Assembly (NCBI GenBank): GCA_040754335.1
Contig: JBFMCV010000002.1
Location: 248,001 to 312,000, forward strand
Length of the DNA: 64,000 nucleotides
Direction: 5' to 3'
From: Thermodesulfobacteriota bacterium
GTDB lineage: Bacteria > Desulfobacterota_D > UBA1144 > Nemesobacterales > UBA2774
In this document: one piece after another, positions 10,198 to 50,805 of the stretch
How positions within the stretch are numbered: position 1 is the first letter of the stretch
Layout of the letters: each line of letters opens with the position of its first letter
The notes under the pieces: model-generated
Database searches by the model: none
Seen by the model: the letters and a program-made list of their open reading frames with translations, nothing else
What the model was told of the DNA's origin: nothing
Translations under genes and position numbers: made by a program

Positions 10198-10817
10198 CGG
10201 CGTCACCTCCGCCATCACATTATATATCGATTGGGGAATCGATGTAAAGGACGATCGGATTTTGCATTTCATTCCCTCTGCTGGTACTGAAACTGGCTCA
10301 GGTGACTTGTAAAATCCCGTTCGTCCTGAGCTTGTCGAAGGATTGAACGGGATTTGGGATTCCCGGTGTATGGAATCTCACTTTTTATTCTGTCATCGCG
10401 AGGCTCGAAGCCTTGTGCGAAGAAGCCGTGGCGATCTCGCTTTTTCCGTCATGCTGAACTACGGTTCTGAACAACGGTTCTGAGCAGGCGAAGAACTGGT
10501 CGCTAACGGTTGAGTGCACAAGCCTTATTTGCTCTCCGCACTATTGAATCAGAAGCCAAATTAGCAAGAACCGGACGCCGTAGGCTGAATGCAACAATGC
10601 ACCTGTTCCACAGTCAGTCCTTGAAAAATCAAAATATTCAGCATCTCATCTTTTTCATGAGATTGCCGCGCTGAGCCTGTCCTGAGCGAAGTCGCTCGTC
10701 TCGGCGTAGGCCGAGCCGTAGCCGGGAAGGACTCGCAATGATATATCGTGGATTTGCAAATCCTACGCCGATTTTATATATTCTCATTCGATTATTTTTA
10801 TAAGCCGGAGGTGCGGG
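10198..10817. repeat. Long intergenic stretch of dispersed repeats
   Basis: 620 bases without a convincing gene. It holds 'cccgttcgtcctgagcttgtcgaagg' with its mirror half (10315-10350), the 'tcatcgcgaggctcgaagcc...tggcgatctcg' element (10395-10440), a 'ggttctgaacaacggttctgagc' segment with a distant partner 'agaaccggacgccg' (10462-10580), and a 'cctgtcctgagcgaagtcg' segment (10675-10730). The same units recur in other gaps of this window, some in opposite orientation. Confidence 0.7.
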
Positions 10818-13257: not shown

Positions 13258-13558
13258 TTTGGACCTCCGGATATTGAACCGGCCTTGATGCCGGGATATA
13301 CAAGAATACATAATGAACGTGGGATGTGGTACCGGGGGTCGGCTTTTTTTCTTTCATTGCGAGGCCGTATTTTGGCCGTGGCGATCTCGTTTTATTGTCA
13401 TGCTGAACTTGTTTCAGCATCTCGTCTTTAAAGAAGACAAAGAATTAAGGATGAGACCCTGAAACGAGTTCAGGGTGACAACAAATGGATTTCTCACATA
13501 TGTTCAAATGACGGATAATGAATCGCGGCTGGGAGCCGCTCCTACGATACTCGATTCT
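13258..13558. repeat. Repeat-filled gap between mgtE and the cyclase gene
   Basis: 13355-13398 holds 'cattgcgaggccgtattttggccgtggcgatctcg'. 13398-13480 holds 'gtcatgctgaacttgtttcagcatctcgtc' and, 30 bases on, its mirror 'gagaccctgaaacgagttcagggtgacaac', a pair repeated almost unchanged at 14452-14565. 13520-13545 holds 'aatcgcggctgggagccgctcctac', which recurs at 25490, 36090 and 40570. No gene is visible. Confidence 0.7.
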
Positions 13559-36057: not shown

Positions 36058-36548
36058 GTCTTGTGCGCATCCTTTATCCTGCATCATGTCTGTAGGAGCG
36101 GCTTCCAGCCGCGATTCCTTTAAATGAAAAGACGAGATTTACGATCGGTCTCGGGAATGACAGAATCATTTTCCCCCTTAGAAAAAGGGGAACAATTCCG
36201 AAGAATCTGAGGAATTGGTCACTATAGATAAACGGCAAAGAAATGCCTTGATCGAAGCAATGCAGGTATTGAATCCAAATTAAAGGGGGATTTAAAAATA
36301 GAAAAAAAGCAAATCCTCCCTAGCCTATTTTGGCTTAGGCAACGGCGACGCGGAAGATAATTTACTCATCCGCCTTTGTTGGTATGGCGTCCGGTTCTTG
36401 CACGCGTTCAGAACCGTTCTTTTTCTAAGGAGGGAATTCATGAAACATCCTTCGACAGGCTCAGAGCGAACGGGTTTGGCTTCTACGATTCCTGAAGCGG
36501 AAGAGGCAATAAGAATTCCGGGTACAATAATTACCCGGAGAGACTTAT
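36058..36548. repeat. Repeat cluster with a composite element and a hairpin at the next gene's ribosome site
   Basis: 36088-36115 carries 'tgtaggagcggcttccagccgcgatt'. 36165-36300 and 36295-36440 hold 'ttccccctt...aaaaggggaa' and the reverse of the composite seen at 11210-11335 (a 'ggagggaatt...aatcctccctagcc' repeat interrupted by 'ggttctt...cagaaccgttc'). 36445-36475 carries 'ccttcgacaggctcagagcgaacggg'. 36518-36538 is a CCGGGTA/TACCCGG hairpin whose 3' arm contains half of the ribosome site of the next gene. Confidence 0.7.
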
Positions 36549-47101: not shown

Positions 47102-48070
47102 ATGATTACACCACAGGAAAGTCTCCTCGGGGCTATCAAATACTTCCAGACCCGGTTCACCGGGCGCCCGAAGCTCGTAAACCTAGAAATCACGAAGCTA
47201 TGCAACGCGAAGTGCGACTTCTGCGACTACTGGCAGACGAGGCACGAGGAGCGCATATACGATTACAGGCCCGTCATCAAGCTGATAAACCCCCTCGTCG
47301 TGGTAATAACTGGCGGCGAGCCCATGCTCAGAAAAGACCTCCCCGACATAGTGAGGCAGGTGAAGGAAAGCTCGTTCTTCGTCTTCACGTCTATGGTGAC
47401 TAAGGGCGACCTGCTTACTGTCGATAAGGCGAAGGAGCTCTTCGACGCGGGCATTAACCAGATAGCGGTGTCGCTCGACTTCCCGGGGAAGAAGCACGAC
47501 GCGTATAGAGGCGTGCCCGGGTTGTGGGATCACCTCTCGGAGCTCCTCCCCGAGCTGGGAAGGAGGTTCCCGAAGCAGCAGGTGACCCTCAACACGATAA
47601 TCATGGAAGACAACATCGACTACATCCCCGAGCTCGCGGCTAAGGCAAAGGAATGGGGCGTAGGCATCTCGTTCAGCTCGTATTCAGTGATGAAGACGAA
47701 CAACGAAACCCACTTCGTACACGCGAAGGAGCTCGAAAGGGTCAGGAACCTCGTTGACGAGCTCATACGTCTCAGGAGAAATTGGAAGGGGACGATACTT
47801 TCGACGGAATATTATCTCAAGGAAATACCGAAATATTTCGCGACTGGCGGCATACCGGGATGCACGGCGGGGATCAGCCACATACAGGTGACGCCCTCTG
47901 GGCATCTCAAGCGCTGCTCCGAAATGCCGGTCACGGCGCATTATTCCGAATACACTCCCAAGCTCTACGACAAGACGGGCTGCACCGCGTGCTGGTACGC
48001 CTGCCGCGGCGAGACGCAGACCCCCGCCAACATCAAACGCGCGCTCGAGTACATGGGCGTGTGGGTTTAA
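47102..48070 (+). CDS. Radical SAM protein with SPASM-like C-terminus
   Basis: 322 residues from the ATG at 47102. LEITKLCNAKCDFCDYW holds the CxxxCxxC cluster ligands (34, 38, 41); ITGGEPMLRKDLPDIV and VSLDFPGKKHDAYRGVPG are typical SAM-binding blocks. The C-terminus has cysteines in IPGCTAGISHIQ, LKRCSEM and GCTACWYACRG, an auxiliary-cluster (SPASM/twitch-like) pattern. Such enzymes modify peptides or cofactors; no precursor peptide is visible nearby. A TTG 36 bases upstream is an alternative start. The nearest downstream feature is the inverted-repeat element. Confidence 0.85.
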   Translation: MITPQESLLGAIKYFQTRFTGRPKLVNLEITKLCNAKCDFCDYWQTRHEERIYDYRPVIKLINPLVVVITGGEPMLRKDLPDIVRQVKESSFFVFTSMVTKGDLLTVDKAKELFDAGINQIAVSLDFPGKKHDAYRGVPGLWDHLSELLPELGRRFPKQQVTLNTIIMEDNIDYIPELAAKAKEWGVGISFSSYSVMKTNNETHFVHAKELERVRNLVDELIRLRRNWKGTILSTEYYLKEIPKYFATGGIPGCTAGISHIQVTPSGHLKRCSEMPVTAHYSEYTPKLYDKTGCTACWYACRGETQTPANIKRALEYMGVWV

Positions 48071-48193
48071 GGCTCACCTTTTCTTTTTACTCCGCAATAA
48101 AAGTGGGGCAATGGGGCATGTGATCCTGCTAATTACCCCGTTCGTCCTGAGCCTGTCGAAGGACGTTAGAGTGCTTCCCCTGGAAGCTCAATG

Positions 48194-48260
48194 CGACAGA
48201 TGCGACAAACGCGCGGAGTATATACCCTGCGGATGTGTCGCATCTGTCGGATGAGGGGGG
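48194..48260. repeat. Left copy of a long inverted repeat flanking an AT-rich gene
   Basis: 48194-48234 (41 bases, starting CGACAGATGCGACAAACG) is identical in reverse complement to 49230-49270. The remaining inner part (48235-48260) matches imperfectly, with about five differences over 24 bases. This copy also has its own mirror arms, CGACAGATGCGACA and TGTCGCATCTGTCG, around a loop containing GGAGTATATACCC, so it could form a cruciform. Confidence 0.9.
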
Positions 48261-48287
48261 AGACTTAAATCATTGATATATAGGTCT

Positions 48288-49190
48288 CTACAAGGCTTTT
48301 ACAAAATTTGTGCCAGCGAGTTTTTCTTTAAATTCGTCTGTGTAATCAGGATCGTTTTCGTTAGTAAAAACAATGCCTGCTATAGACTCTAAATGGATTA
48401 AATTTCTTTCTTTGAGTATTTGATATGGTCTGATTATGGATTCCCTGTATTCTTCGTCACGCGTACCCGTATCTACGTTAGCTAGATTATTCATAGCACT
48501 ATAGACCGAATGCACTATCCAATCAATCAAAACCATTCCAGGATGTGACCTAGCATCTTTTCTCACGCTATCATTATCTACATAACTCTTTTGATTGGCA
48601 ATCATAATGGTTACTCCATATTTCTCTTCTATTCTTTTCGATGCCTCTAACATATGTGGATATTGACTAATAATTTTCAGGAATTGCATTGATCCTTTAG
48701 GATCGCCTGGGAATCGATCTAGACTAAACAGCATATTTCTTTGATTCAACTTATTAGCTATTTGGCTGAATTGATAGCACATTAAGAATAGAGACAAGCT
48801 ATACCATGGAATAAAAAATGCAGAATTATGGTTCAAGTTTCGCTTTAGTACTTTGAAGATATTGGCTTTCTTTTTTATTACATCATCTGGTAATGAATCT
48901 TGGGCTTTGGATATAAATTTTTCACCTATAGTTTTAATTGCAGAGAGCTTGGCATAGGTTCCATAACAATAAATATAATCACAGGCATTCAGATCCTTCG
49001 CTATTTCTTCGGCTACTAACGGTCTATCCAATGATGGTACGTTTTTATACTGCTCATACTTATCAAATATTTCTGGTTGGAGACAACATAAGCCAATTAA
49101 ACATGCAGTAATATCATTTAATTGATCATTTATCTGTTCGGACGGTTGACAGTCTACATAAATAACTAGTCCATGGTCTTTATGTAACAT
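48288..49190 (-). CDS. AT-rich orphan gene inside inverted repeats, possibly RNase H-like (DUF3800-like)
   Basis: 300 residues, no family recognised with confidence. It is far more AT-rich than any other gene here (roughly 35-40% GC by eye) and uses AT-ending codons, so it was probably acquired. N-terminal LVIYVDCQPSEQ, middle MLFSLDRFPGDPKG and later GMVLIDWIVHSVYSAMNNLA give three spaced aspartates that loosely recall DUF3800 RNase H-fold proteins; this is a weak resemblance. No signal peptide; one possible hydrophobic helix (FFIPWYSLSLFLMCYQF). TATAAT lies six bases upstream of the ATG, so the mRNA may be leaderless. Inverted repeats bound it on both sides. Confidence 0.7.
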   Translation of the reverse strand: MLHKDHGLVIYVDCQPSEQINDQLNDITACLIGLCCLQPEIFDKYEQYKNVPSLDRPLVAEEIAKDLNACDYIYCYGTYAKLSAIKTIGEKFISKAQDSLPDDVIKKKANIFKVLKRNLNHNSAFFIPWYSLSLFLMCYQFSQIANKLNQRNMLFSLDRFPGDPKGSMQFLKIISQYPHMLEASKRIEEKYGVTIMIANQKSYVDNDSVRKDARSHPGMVLIDWIVHSVYSAMNNLANVDTGTRDEEYRESIIRPYQILKERNLIHLESIAGIVFTNENDPDYTDEFKEKLAGTNFVKAL

Positions 49191-49196
49191 CAGAAG

Positions 49197-49202
49197 ATTA
49201 TA
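49197..49202 (-). promoter_or_regulatory. Probable -10 box of the orphan gene
   Basis: On the minus strand TATAAT occupies 49202-49197, six bases before the ATG at 49190. Transcription would start at or next to the start codon, giving a leaderless message. I see no convincing -35 hexamer; the upstream DNA is the inverted repeat itself. Confidence 0.5.
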
Positions 49203-49270
49203 TCACCCCCAATCCGACACATCCGACAGATCCGCAGGGTATATACTCCGCGCGTTTGTCGCATCTGTCG
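49203..49270. repeat. Right copy of the long inverted repeat
   Basis: 49230-49270 is the exact reverse complement of 48194-48234. The inner part (49203-49229) contains two tandem ATCCGACA-type units (AATCCGACACATCCGACAG) where the left copy has one reversed, so the two copies have diverged only on the inner side. The outer flanks beyond 48193 and 49271 do not match each other and I find no clear target duplication. Confidence 0.9.
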
Positions 49271-49368
49271 TATCCGTGTAACAACCTGCCATTGCTTGAA
49301 TTATTGATTGTTAAATTGCGTCAAGCAAAGATTGCGGATGAGGGTTGTCGGATGATCAGGACTGCTGC

Positions 49369-50805
49369 TCACCCCTTAACCCGCCAGATTGTGCCTTCGG
49401 CCTTGTCTTCGAGGAGTATGCCGCGGGAGCTGAGCTCATCCCTTATTTCGTCCGCGCGCTTCCAGTTCTTTTCCTTCCTCGCGTAGTTCCTCTCCTTGAT
49501 CAGCTCCTCGATCTCCTCTTCCGTGATGCCGGCCGATTTTTTCTCGAGCTTCAGGCTCTGGAGGTATTCGTCGGGGTCGTATTCGAGTATTCCGAGCGTA
49601 CTGCCGAAATGGCCGATCTCTTTGACGGCCCCTTCGAGGGCGGGCGTCCATCCCCGGGCGTCTATAGACCTGTTCACGGCGCGCGTTAGCTCGAACAGGT
49701 TCCCTATGGCGTCAGCCGTGTTGAAGTCTTCACTCATGGTCTCGACCCATTTCCTGCCGAACGAGGCCGCGGCAGCCGCAAGCTCGCGGTCGTCCTCGGT
49801 CCCGTTCTTGCGCTGGTCCTTAGCGCGCTTGAGCGTGATGTAGAGCCTTTCGAGCGCGGCTTCTGACTCCGCCATTGTCGCGTCCGAAAAGTCCGCGGGG
49901 TTGAGGTAGTGATGCGAGAGGAAGAAGAGCCTTATCGCCTCCCTGTTCCACATCGTGACGGCGTCCCTCACGTTCAAAATGTTCCCGACGGATTTCGACA
50001 TCTTCTCCCGGTTTATCTGTATGAGGCCGTTGTGCACCCAGTATTTTGCGAACTCTTTTCCGGTGGCGGCTTCCGACTGCGCGATCTCGTTCTCGTGGTG
50101 GGGGAAAATGAGGTCCTTCCCGCCGCCGTGTATGTCGAAGCTCGGGCCCAGATATTTCATGCTCATGGTCGAGCACTCGATGTGCCATCCGGGGCGTCCC
50201 TTGCCCCACGGGCTTTCCCAGAAGGGCTCTCCCGGCTTGGCCCCTTTCCAGAGCGCGAAGTCGAGCGGGTCTTCCTTCTTCTCGTTTATGTCTATCCTCG
50301 TCCCGGCGAGCATGTCGTCGGGGTCTCTTTTCGAGAGCCTGCCGTATCCCTTGAACTTCTTCACTGAAAAGAAAACGTCGTCCCCCGACTGATAGGCGTA
50401 GCCGTTGTCGATTATCCTCTCTATGAGGTCTATGATTTCGGGTACGTGCTCCGTGACCTTGGGCTCGACTGTCGGCCTCTTCACTCCTATCGAGGCCATG
50501 TCTTCCCTGTATTCCTGTATGTATCTCTCTGAGATCTCGTGCGCCGGGATGCCCGTCTCGTTAGCCCTGTTGATTATCTTGTCGTCGATGTCGGTGAAGT
50601 TCCTCACGTACGTGACCTCGTACCCCACGTGGGAGAGGAACCTCTCTATGACGTCGAACGTGACGGCAGCACGCGCGTGTCCGAGGTGGGCTGAGTCGTA
50701 CACCGTCGGGCCGCAGACGTACATCTTTATCTTGTTCTTCTCGTGCGGGACGAGCTCTTCGCTTTTCTGCGTGAGCGTGTTGTAGAGGGTTACTTTCTTT
50801 TCCAT
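49369..50805 (-). CDS. cysS: Cysteinyl-tRNA synthetase
   Basis: 478 residues. CGPTVYDSAHLGHARAAVTFD contains the zinc cysteine and the HIGH-equivalent HLGH; KMSKSVGNILNVRD is the KMSKS loop; GGGKDLIFPHHENEIAQSEAA carries further zinc ligands (His, His, Glu region), and the upstream GRPGWHIECSTMSMKYLG gives Cys. It charges tRNA-Cys. The length is normal and the gene is alone, ending 99 bases from the inverted-repeat element. Confidence 0.97.
   Translation of the reverse strand: MEKKVTLYNTLTQKSEELVPHEKNKIKMYVCGPTVYDSAHLGHARAAVTFDVIERFLSHVGYEVTYVRNFTDIDDKIINRANETGIPAHEISERYIQEYREDMASIGVKRPTVEPKVTEHVPEIIDLIERIIDNGYAYQSGDDVFFSVKKFKGYGRLSKRDPDDMLAGTRIDINEKKEDPLDFALWKGAKPGEPFWESPWGKGRPGWHIECSTMSMKYLGPSFDIHGGGKDLIFPHHENEIAQSEAATGKEFAKYWVHNGLIQINREKMSKSVGNILNVRDAVTMWNREAIRLFFLSHHYLNPADFSDATMAESEAALERLYITLKRAKDQRKNGTEDDRELAAAAASFGRKWVETMSEDFNTADAIGNLFELTRAVNRSIDARGWTPALEGAVKEIGHFGSTLGILEYDPDEYLQSLKLEKKSAGITEEEIEELIKERNYARKEKNWKRADEIRDELSSRGILLEDKAEGTIWRVKG

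Follow-up and report, generated by a model that had tools for sequence, protein, structure and literature searches.

A putative gene cassette between copies of a genus-specific hairpin repeat at the radical SAM-cysS interval of a Thermodesulfobacteriota bacterium

A single AT-rich gene lies between two inverted copies of a repeat in the 64-kb stretch of DNA analysed here (the window), raising the question of how the gene arrived and whether the repeat took part. The genome holding the window is designated G000, and the other three species of the genus G001, G002 and G003. The inverted repeat pair (48191-48261 and 49203-49273; 71 nt, 90% complementary) has in common an identical stretch of 41 nt, CGACAGATGCGACAAACGCGCGGAGTATATACCCTGCGGAT. 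It contains two copies of a hairpin-forming palindrome of about 63 bp, here called P. The left copy (48191..48253, plus strand) has the arms TGCGACAGATGCGACA and TGTCGCATCTGTCGG with a TATATA core between them, and the right copy (49210..49273, minus strand) is inverted relative to it. Both copies are self-palindromic, with DNA folding z values of -6.5 and -3.8. The gene between them (48288..49190, minus strand) encodes an orphan protein of 300 aa and has a GC content of 0.34, against about 0.55-0.60 in the surroundings and about 0.56 in the genome. Its distance to P is 34 bp on the left and 20 bp on the right, and TATAAT is located 6 nt upstream of its ATG. The unit is flanked by a radical SAM gene (47102..48070, plus strand; 322 aa, PF04055), which is conserved in nine relatives, and by the convergent cysS gene for cysteinyl-tRNA synthetase (49369..50805, minus strand), named by similarity read from its translation. 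The first-pass annotation had described the AT-rich gene between inverted repeats with 41 identical bases, the palindromic left copy, a -10 box six bases from the ATG and the same two neighbours, and all of these are borne out.

The interval between the radical SAM gene and cysS was then compared among relatives. In nine relatives the two genes lie next to each other, separated by 21-333 bp (match coordinates) versus 1,298 bp in the window, and the cargo gene is absent from the interval in all nine. Because these relatives have a short gap and no gene, we read the cargo gene, by sequence comparison, as a lineage-specific insertion. The first-pass annotation had looked to an empty site and a lone repeat copy in relatives as support for mobility, and to vertical conservation of the gene with its flanks as evidence against it; both of the former were found and the latter was not. 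The lone copy is in G003, where the interval is 333 bp long and carries one P. The cysS-side flank of this P aligns with the flank of the right copy of the window, making the two orthologous, and the flank on its opposite side is similar to that lying outside the left copy (6/2000 shuffles reach the score). Neither P nor the gene is present in the interval of G001 and G002. The simplest history would be that P was present first between the radical SAM gene and cysS, and that the gene and a second P came later. Judged against the single-P site of G003, the segment gained would consist of the left P and the gene (48191..49209). Loss in G003, not gain in G000, may also be considered, but the gene is missing from all nine relatives.

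P was next examined as a repeat family. The first-pass annotation had reported no other copy of the repeat in the window, where the two copies around the cargo gene are indeed the only ones; genome-wide, about 17 further places were found by repeat search and covariance model, so that the repeat is not unique to this gene. The covariance model (R1), built from 16 P copies, was run on G000, the three congeners and 22 genomes of other related genera. In G000 it gave 40 matches, most places being matched on both strands, which correspond to about 19 places and one weak one. About a dozen P places were found in each of the three congeners, and these counts are lower bounds because many copies sit at contig ends of the drafts (86-96% complete). 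None was found in the 22 genomes of other related genera. P is a genus-specific, dispersed, hairpin-forming repeat. The two arms covary: among 47 copies, the mean score within a copy was 11.2 versus 5.8 between copies, and 0/5000 permutations reached it, a figure that is not a probability because related sequences were unweighted. Read by eye, the arms fall into the subtypes CCGACA, GCGACA, GGGACA, GTGACA, CTGACA and CCGCCA around a TATATA-like core. In some copies, one side shows a C-tract and the opposite side GTYYAA.

P is not confined to pairs around genes. Solitary copies occur in unrelated gaps, gene-free clusters are present at three loci (L011, L013 and L101), and several copies are located in repeat-rich intergenic hot spots amid other dispersed repeat families. 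The first-pass annotation had taken a common intergenic REP in unrelated gaps as evidence against mobility, and this is found in part, P being dispersed, intergenic and also solitary in unrelated gaps. The orientation of paired copies differs from unit to unit, and a strict P+...P- arrangement of units was dropped for this variation. In one gene-free cluster (L011 2918-3347), a 102-nt direct repeat with a GTGACA-subtype P flanks another P, an arrangement resembling the tandem REPIN clusters described elsewhere (PMC3116915). In two species, genes with DnaB_N and AAA_25 domains (L093 14751-16163 and L096 5115-6569) are overlapped by P at the 3' end; in G003 another homologue, the third, is located close to P (L123).

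Different cargo is found between P copies elsewhere in the genus, as the first-pass annotation had predicted for a mobile unit. In G001, P copies bracket a PIN_10 gene and a DUF433/HTH_66 gene (GC 0.36 and 0.40), likely a toxin-antitoxin pair. The same species carries an array of the form P-gene-P-gene-P (L097) with a Ser/Thr kinase gene (GC 0.38) and a gene for a 204-aa orphan (GC 0.31 excluding N). In G000, G002 and G003, P copies bracket IPTL-CTERM genes and small ORFs. Of about 40 IPTL-CTERM matches in G000, many form runs on C2:567-590 kb and only three or four are beside P. The cargo was listed, the units were defined and the arm subtypes were read manually. The mean GC of 11 bracketed ORFs was 0.42 versus 0.58 for 33 others at the same loci (Mann-Whitney p = 9e-7), and four P-unit pairs 0.4-2 kb apart were observed versus 0.11 expected under random placement; both figures overstate, because the bracketed ORFs were hand-picked at loci selected for P, and uniform placement over the genome is assumed in the clustering expectation. 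P copies within a unit are mildly more alike than copies at different loci (0.75 vs 0.65, p = 0.025). Near-identical P pairs surround several inserts (0.93, 0.95, 1.0 and 0.93), some of the outer pairs having been picked post hoc from maps. In the units, AT-rich sequence extends, on one side at least, up to a few tens of bases from P.

Orthologous P sites, identified by flank searches and comparison of regions, were then compared. At one site (F5/F12), G000 and G001 carry P alone, G002 has an IPTL gene of 172 aa and G003 one of 282 aa; the site is split over two contigs in both of the latter, and the contig ends in G003 share 47 identical bases. A second site (F2) is occupied by an IPTL gene in G000 and by the PIN pair in G001, and both P and cargo are missing from it in G002 and G003. 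In G000, the kinase site lacks P as well as cargo. At the F33/F18 site, about 2.3 kb is extra in G000 versus G003, starting from the edge of the orthologous P; its other end is not a clean junction because it lies inside a common dispersed repeat. Some orthologous P sites differ in content among species, carrying different cargo, a solitary P or neither.

From these comparisons we tentatively propose, with slightly less than even confidence, that the window unit is a cassette added at a pre-existing P. A P would already have stood between the radical SAM gene and cysS, and a molecule carrying the cargo gene and one P would have been joined to it, giving P-gene-P; cargo at P sites would be gained or lost by recombination between P copies. 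Such recombination could take either of two routes. The first, which the host could possibly carry out, would be homologous recombination of near-identical hairpins, one of them carried by incoming or excised DNA. The second would be recombination at P catalysed in trans by an enzyme encoded elsewhere. The first-pass annotation had suggested, among other options, a cassette mobilised in trans through its repeat ends. Different cargo, the empty site and the single P agree with it and keep it a sound interpretation, while mobility by P itself is an inference, because the searches revealed no transposase for P and several P copies lie in hot spots rich in repeats. The wider proposition, that P sites form an undescribed genus-level cassette system of covarying hairpins with several arm subtypes, serving for the insertion, exchange and loss of genes, most of them AT-rich, by means of an enzyme encoded at another locus, is doubtful at present.

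The strongest competing explanation is that P is an inert or self-spreading repeat accumulating in permissive gaps, at which foreign genes arrive by other routes. The P clusters without cargo, the other dispersed repeats in P gaps and the mixed orientation of P all fit such a coincidence. It accounts less well for the snug fit of the foreign segment between P copies in the window, PIN and kinase units, and for the matched, near-identical pairs at several inserts. We regard this explanation as possible but, on balance, unlikely.

Composite transposition in trans would make P a MITE-like element, two copies of which move together with the DNA between them by a transposase encoded elsewhere. Same-subtype pairs around cargo and dispersed solo copies are as expected for it, and TIME-COMPs provide a precedent (PMC13367494). 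The search for candidate enzymes covered Y1 transposases and tyrosine recombinases of G000-G003, and no transposase or autonomous element matching P was found among them. Genes for XerC/D-like recombinases are present in all four P-bearing species and also in genera lacking P, and the tyrosine recombinase places listed for G000-G003 all differ from the P places. The gene for a third tyrosine recombinase (L155 2178-3056) is conserved and neighbours an rpoD-like gene in G000, G002 and G003; nothing ties it to P, because P-lacking genera also have tyrosine recombinases. At the window unit, no target duplication was evident by eye, the naive sites failing to align base by base because the intergenic sequence has diverged, and G003 already carries one P at the site. 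We consider composite transposition rather improbable.

P could also be a transcribed regulatory or terminator hairpin that functions beside genes, its bracketing of cargo being incidental. Arm covariation and the position of P near gene ends would suit this role, but P is also solitary in gaps, on either side of genes and in either orientation, and cargo differs at orthologous sites. A search of Rfam with P gave no family above the gathering score, and P was rejected as a known structured RNA on this result, which likewise speaks against a regulatory hairpin. We consider such a role very improbable.

That P is a REP/REPIN mobilised by a RAYT (Y1) transposase is hardly credible: a Y1_Tnp (PF01797) gene does lie near three P copies in G000, but it sits between GTAG-type REPs, no match was obtained in the P-bearing G001-G003 (drafts, 86-96% complete), and the ends of 55 P copies carry GTAG in 1/55 and CGTC in 4/55 against a background of 4 and 4. 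Because it is absent from the congeners and flanked by GTAG-REPs, this Y1/RAYT is unlikely to move P. The gene (L009 2351-2977 on G000:C8, GC 0.41) forms a cluster with the three P copies and an IPTL-CTERM gene. GTAG-tagged REP palindromes of the type flanking this only Y1/RAYT gene of G000 are present in the window as well (GTAGGAGCGGCTTCCAGCCGCGA, up to 3 mismatches), at 36092 on the plus strand and at 13523, 25491, 40570 and 40672 on the minus strand. Another dispersed repeat, CCTTCGACAGGCTCAGGACGAACGG (up to 4 mismatches), is located at 10753, 11383, 15839, 30789, 36449, 45298, 52031 and 53660; those on the minus strand were counted on the reverse complement and serve as approximate labels only.

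The nature of the cargo itself was also examined. The first-pass annotation had noted three spaced aspartates loosely like those of DUF3800/RNase H-fold proteins, an idea that gained no support: searches of the 300-aa protein against Pfam, PADLOC, PHROGs and NCBIfam profiles and PDB sequences gave nothing of note, and DUF3800/RNase H homology was set aside as no profile similarity was found. The AlphaFold2 model is unusable because its mean pLDDT is 38. Pattern scans, which reach close relatives only, detected no homologue in phages, plasmids, viral contigs or genome contigs. Within the phylum set of 58 genomes, the only relative found was a fragment (55% over 75 aa) that lies at the end of a contig in G028. 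ORFs of 614 aa and 420 aa precede this fragment (L065 6572-10878), with a HEPN-like ORF between them as judged by eye; the two look by eye like parts of a restriction-modification-like system. A profile search on part of the 420-aa ORF gave no family, and no P was found on the G028 contig carrying the fragment. A defence role for the orphan protein is a guess.

Among known systems, TIME-COMPs and dif modules are the nearest analogues of the P units by architecture, and REPs the nearest by repeat type. A dif site is a 28-bp XerC/XerD site with a 6-bp spacer. The dif (pdif) modules of Acinetobacter are moved by XerC/XerD, and their sites consist of inverted arms around a central spacer (PMC6449649). 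The P units are likewise small modules bounded by inverted-arm sites, genus-restricted, and one of them carries a likely toxin-antitoxin pair, but P is about 63 bp long and chromosomal, with a core unlike dif by eye. TIME-COMPs, or mobile insertion cassettes, are MITE-bounded composites in which two copies of a short element, direct or inverted, surround unrelated cargo, and solo copies exist (PMC13367494). P is also paired around unrelated cargo with solo copies elsewhere; it differs in that it matched no transposon family, is chromosomal and genus-restricted, and is present as a single copy at the insertion site in G003. REPs and REPINs are dispersed, intergenic, hairpin-forming palindromes, clustered and with covarying arms (PMC3733652, PMC3116915). 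P shares each of these properties but brackets cargo, and it fails two defining REP features, the GTAG/CGTC end tag and a RAYT in the P-bearing genomes, the latter being missing in three of the four species. Integron cassettes are compact, mostly AT-rich, unrelated genes with imperfect palindromes (attC) between them and are served by an integron integrase. The P-gene-P-gene-P array of G001, with AT-rich unrelated genes and palindromes between, may be likened to them, but no integron integrase was seen near P, P sites are spread over many loci and the orientation of P is not fixed.

If P copies are true recombination sites, the genus would possess a cassette-like system with neither an integrase nor a transposase next to it. 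Any gene between two P copies would then be a candidate accessory, possibly defence, gene, giving a simple means of finding them, and the recruitment of foreign genes by lone hairpin repeats could be followed in the genus as a natural test. If P merely marks permissive gaps, it would still flag lineage-specific gene gain.
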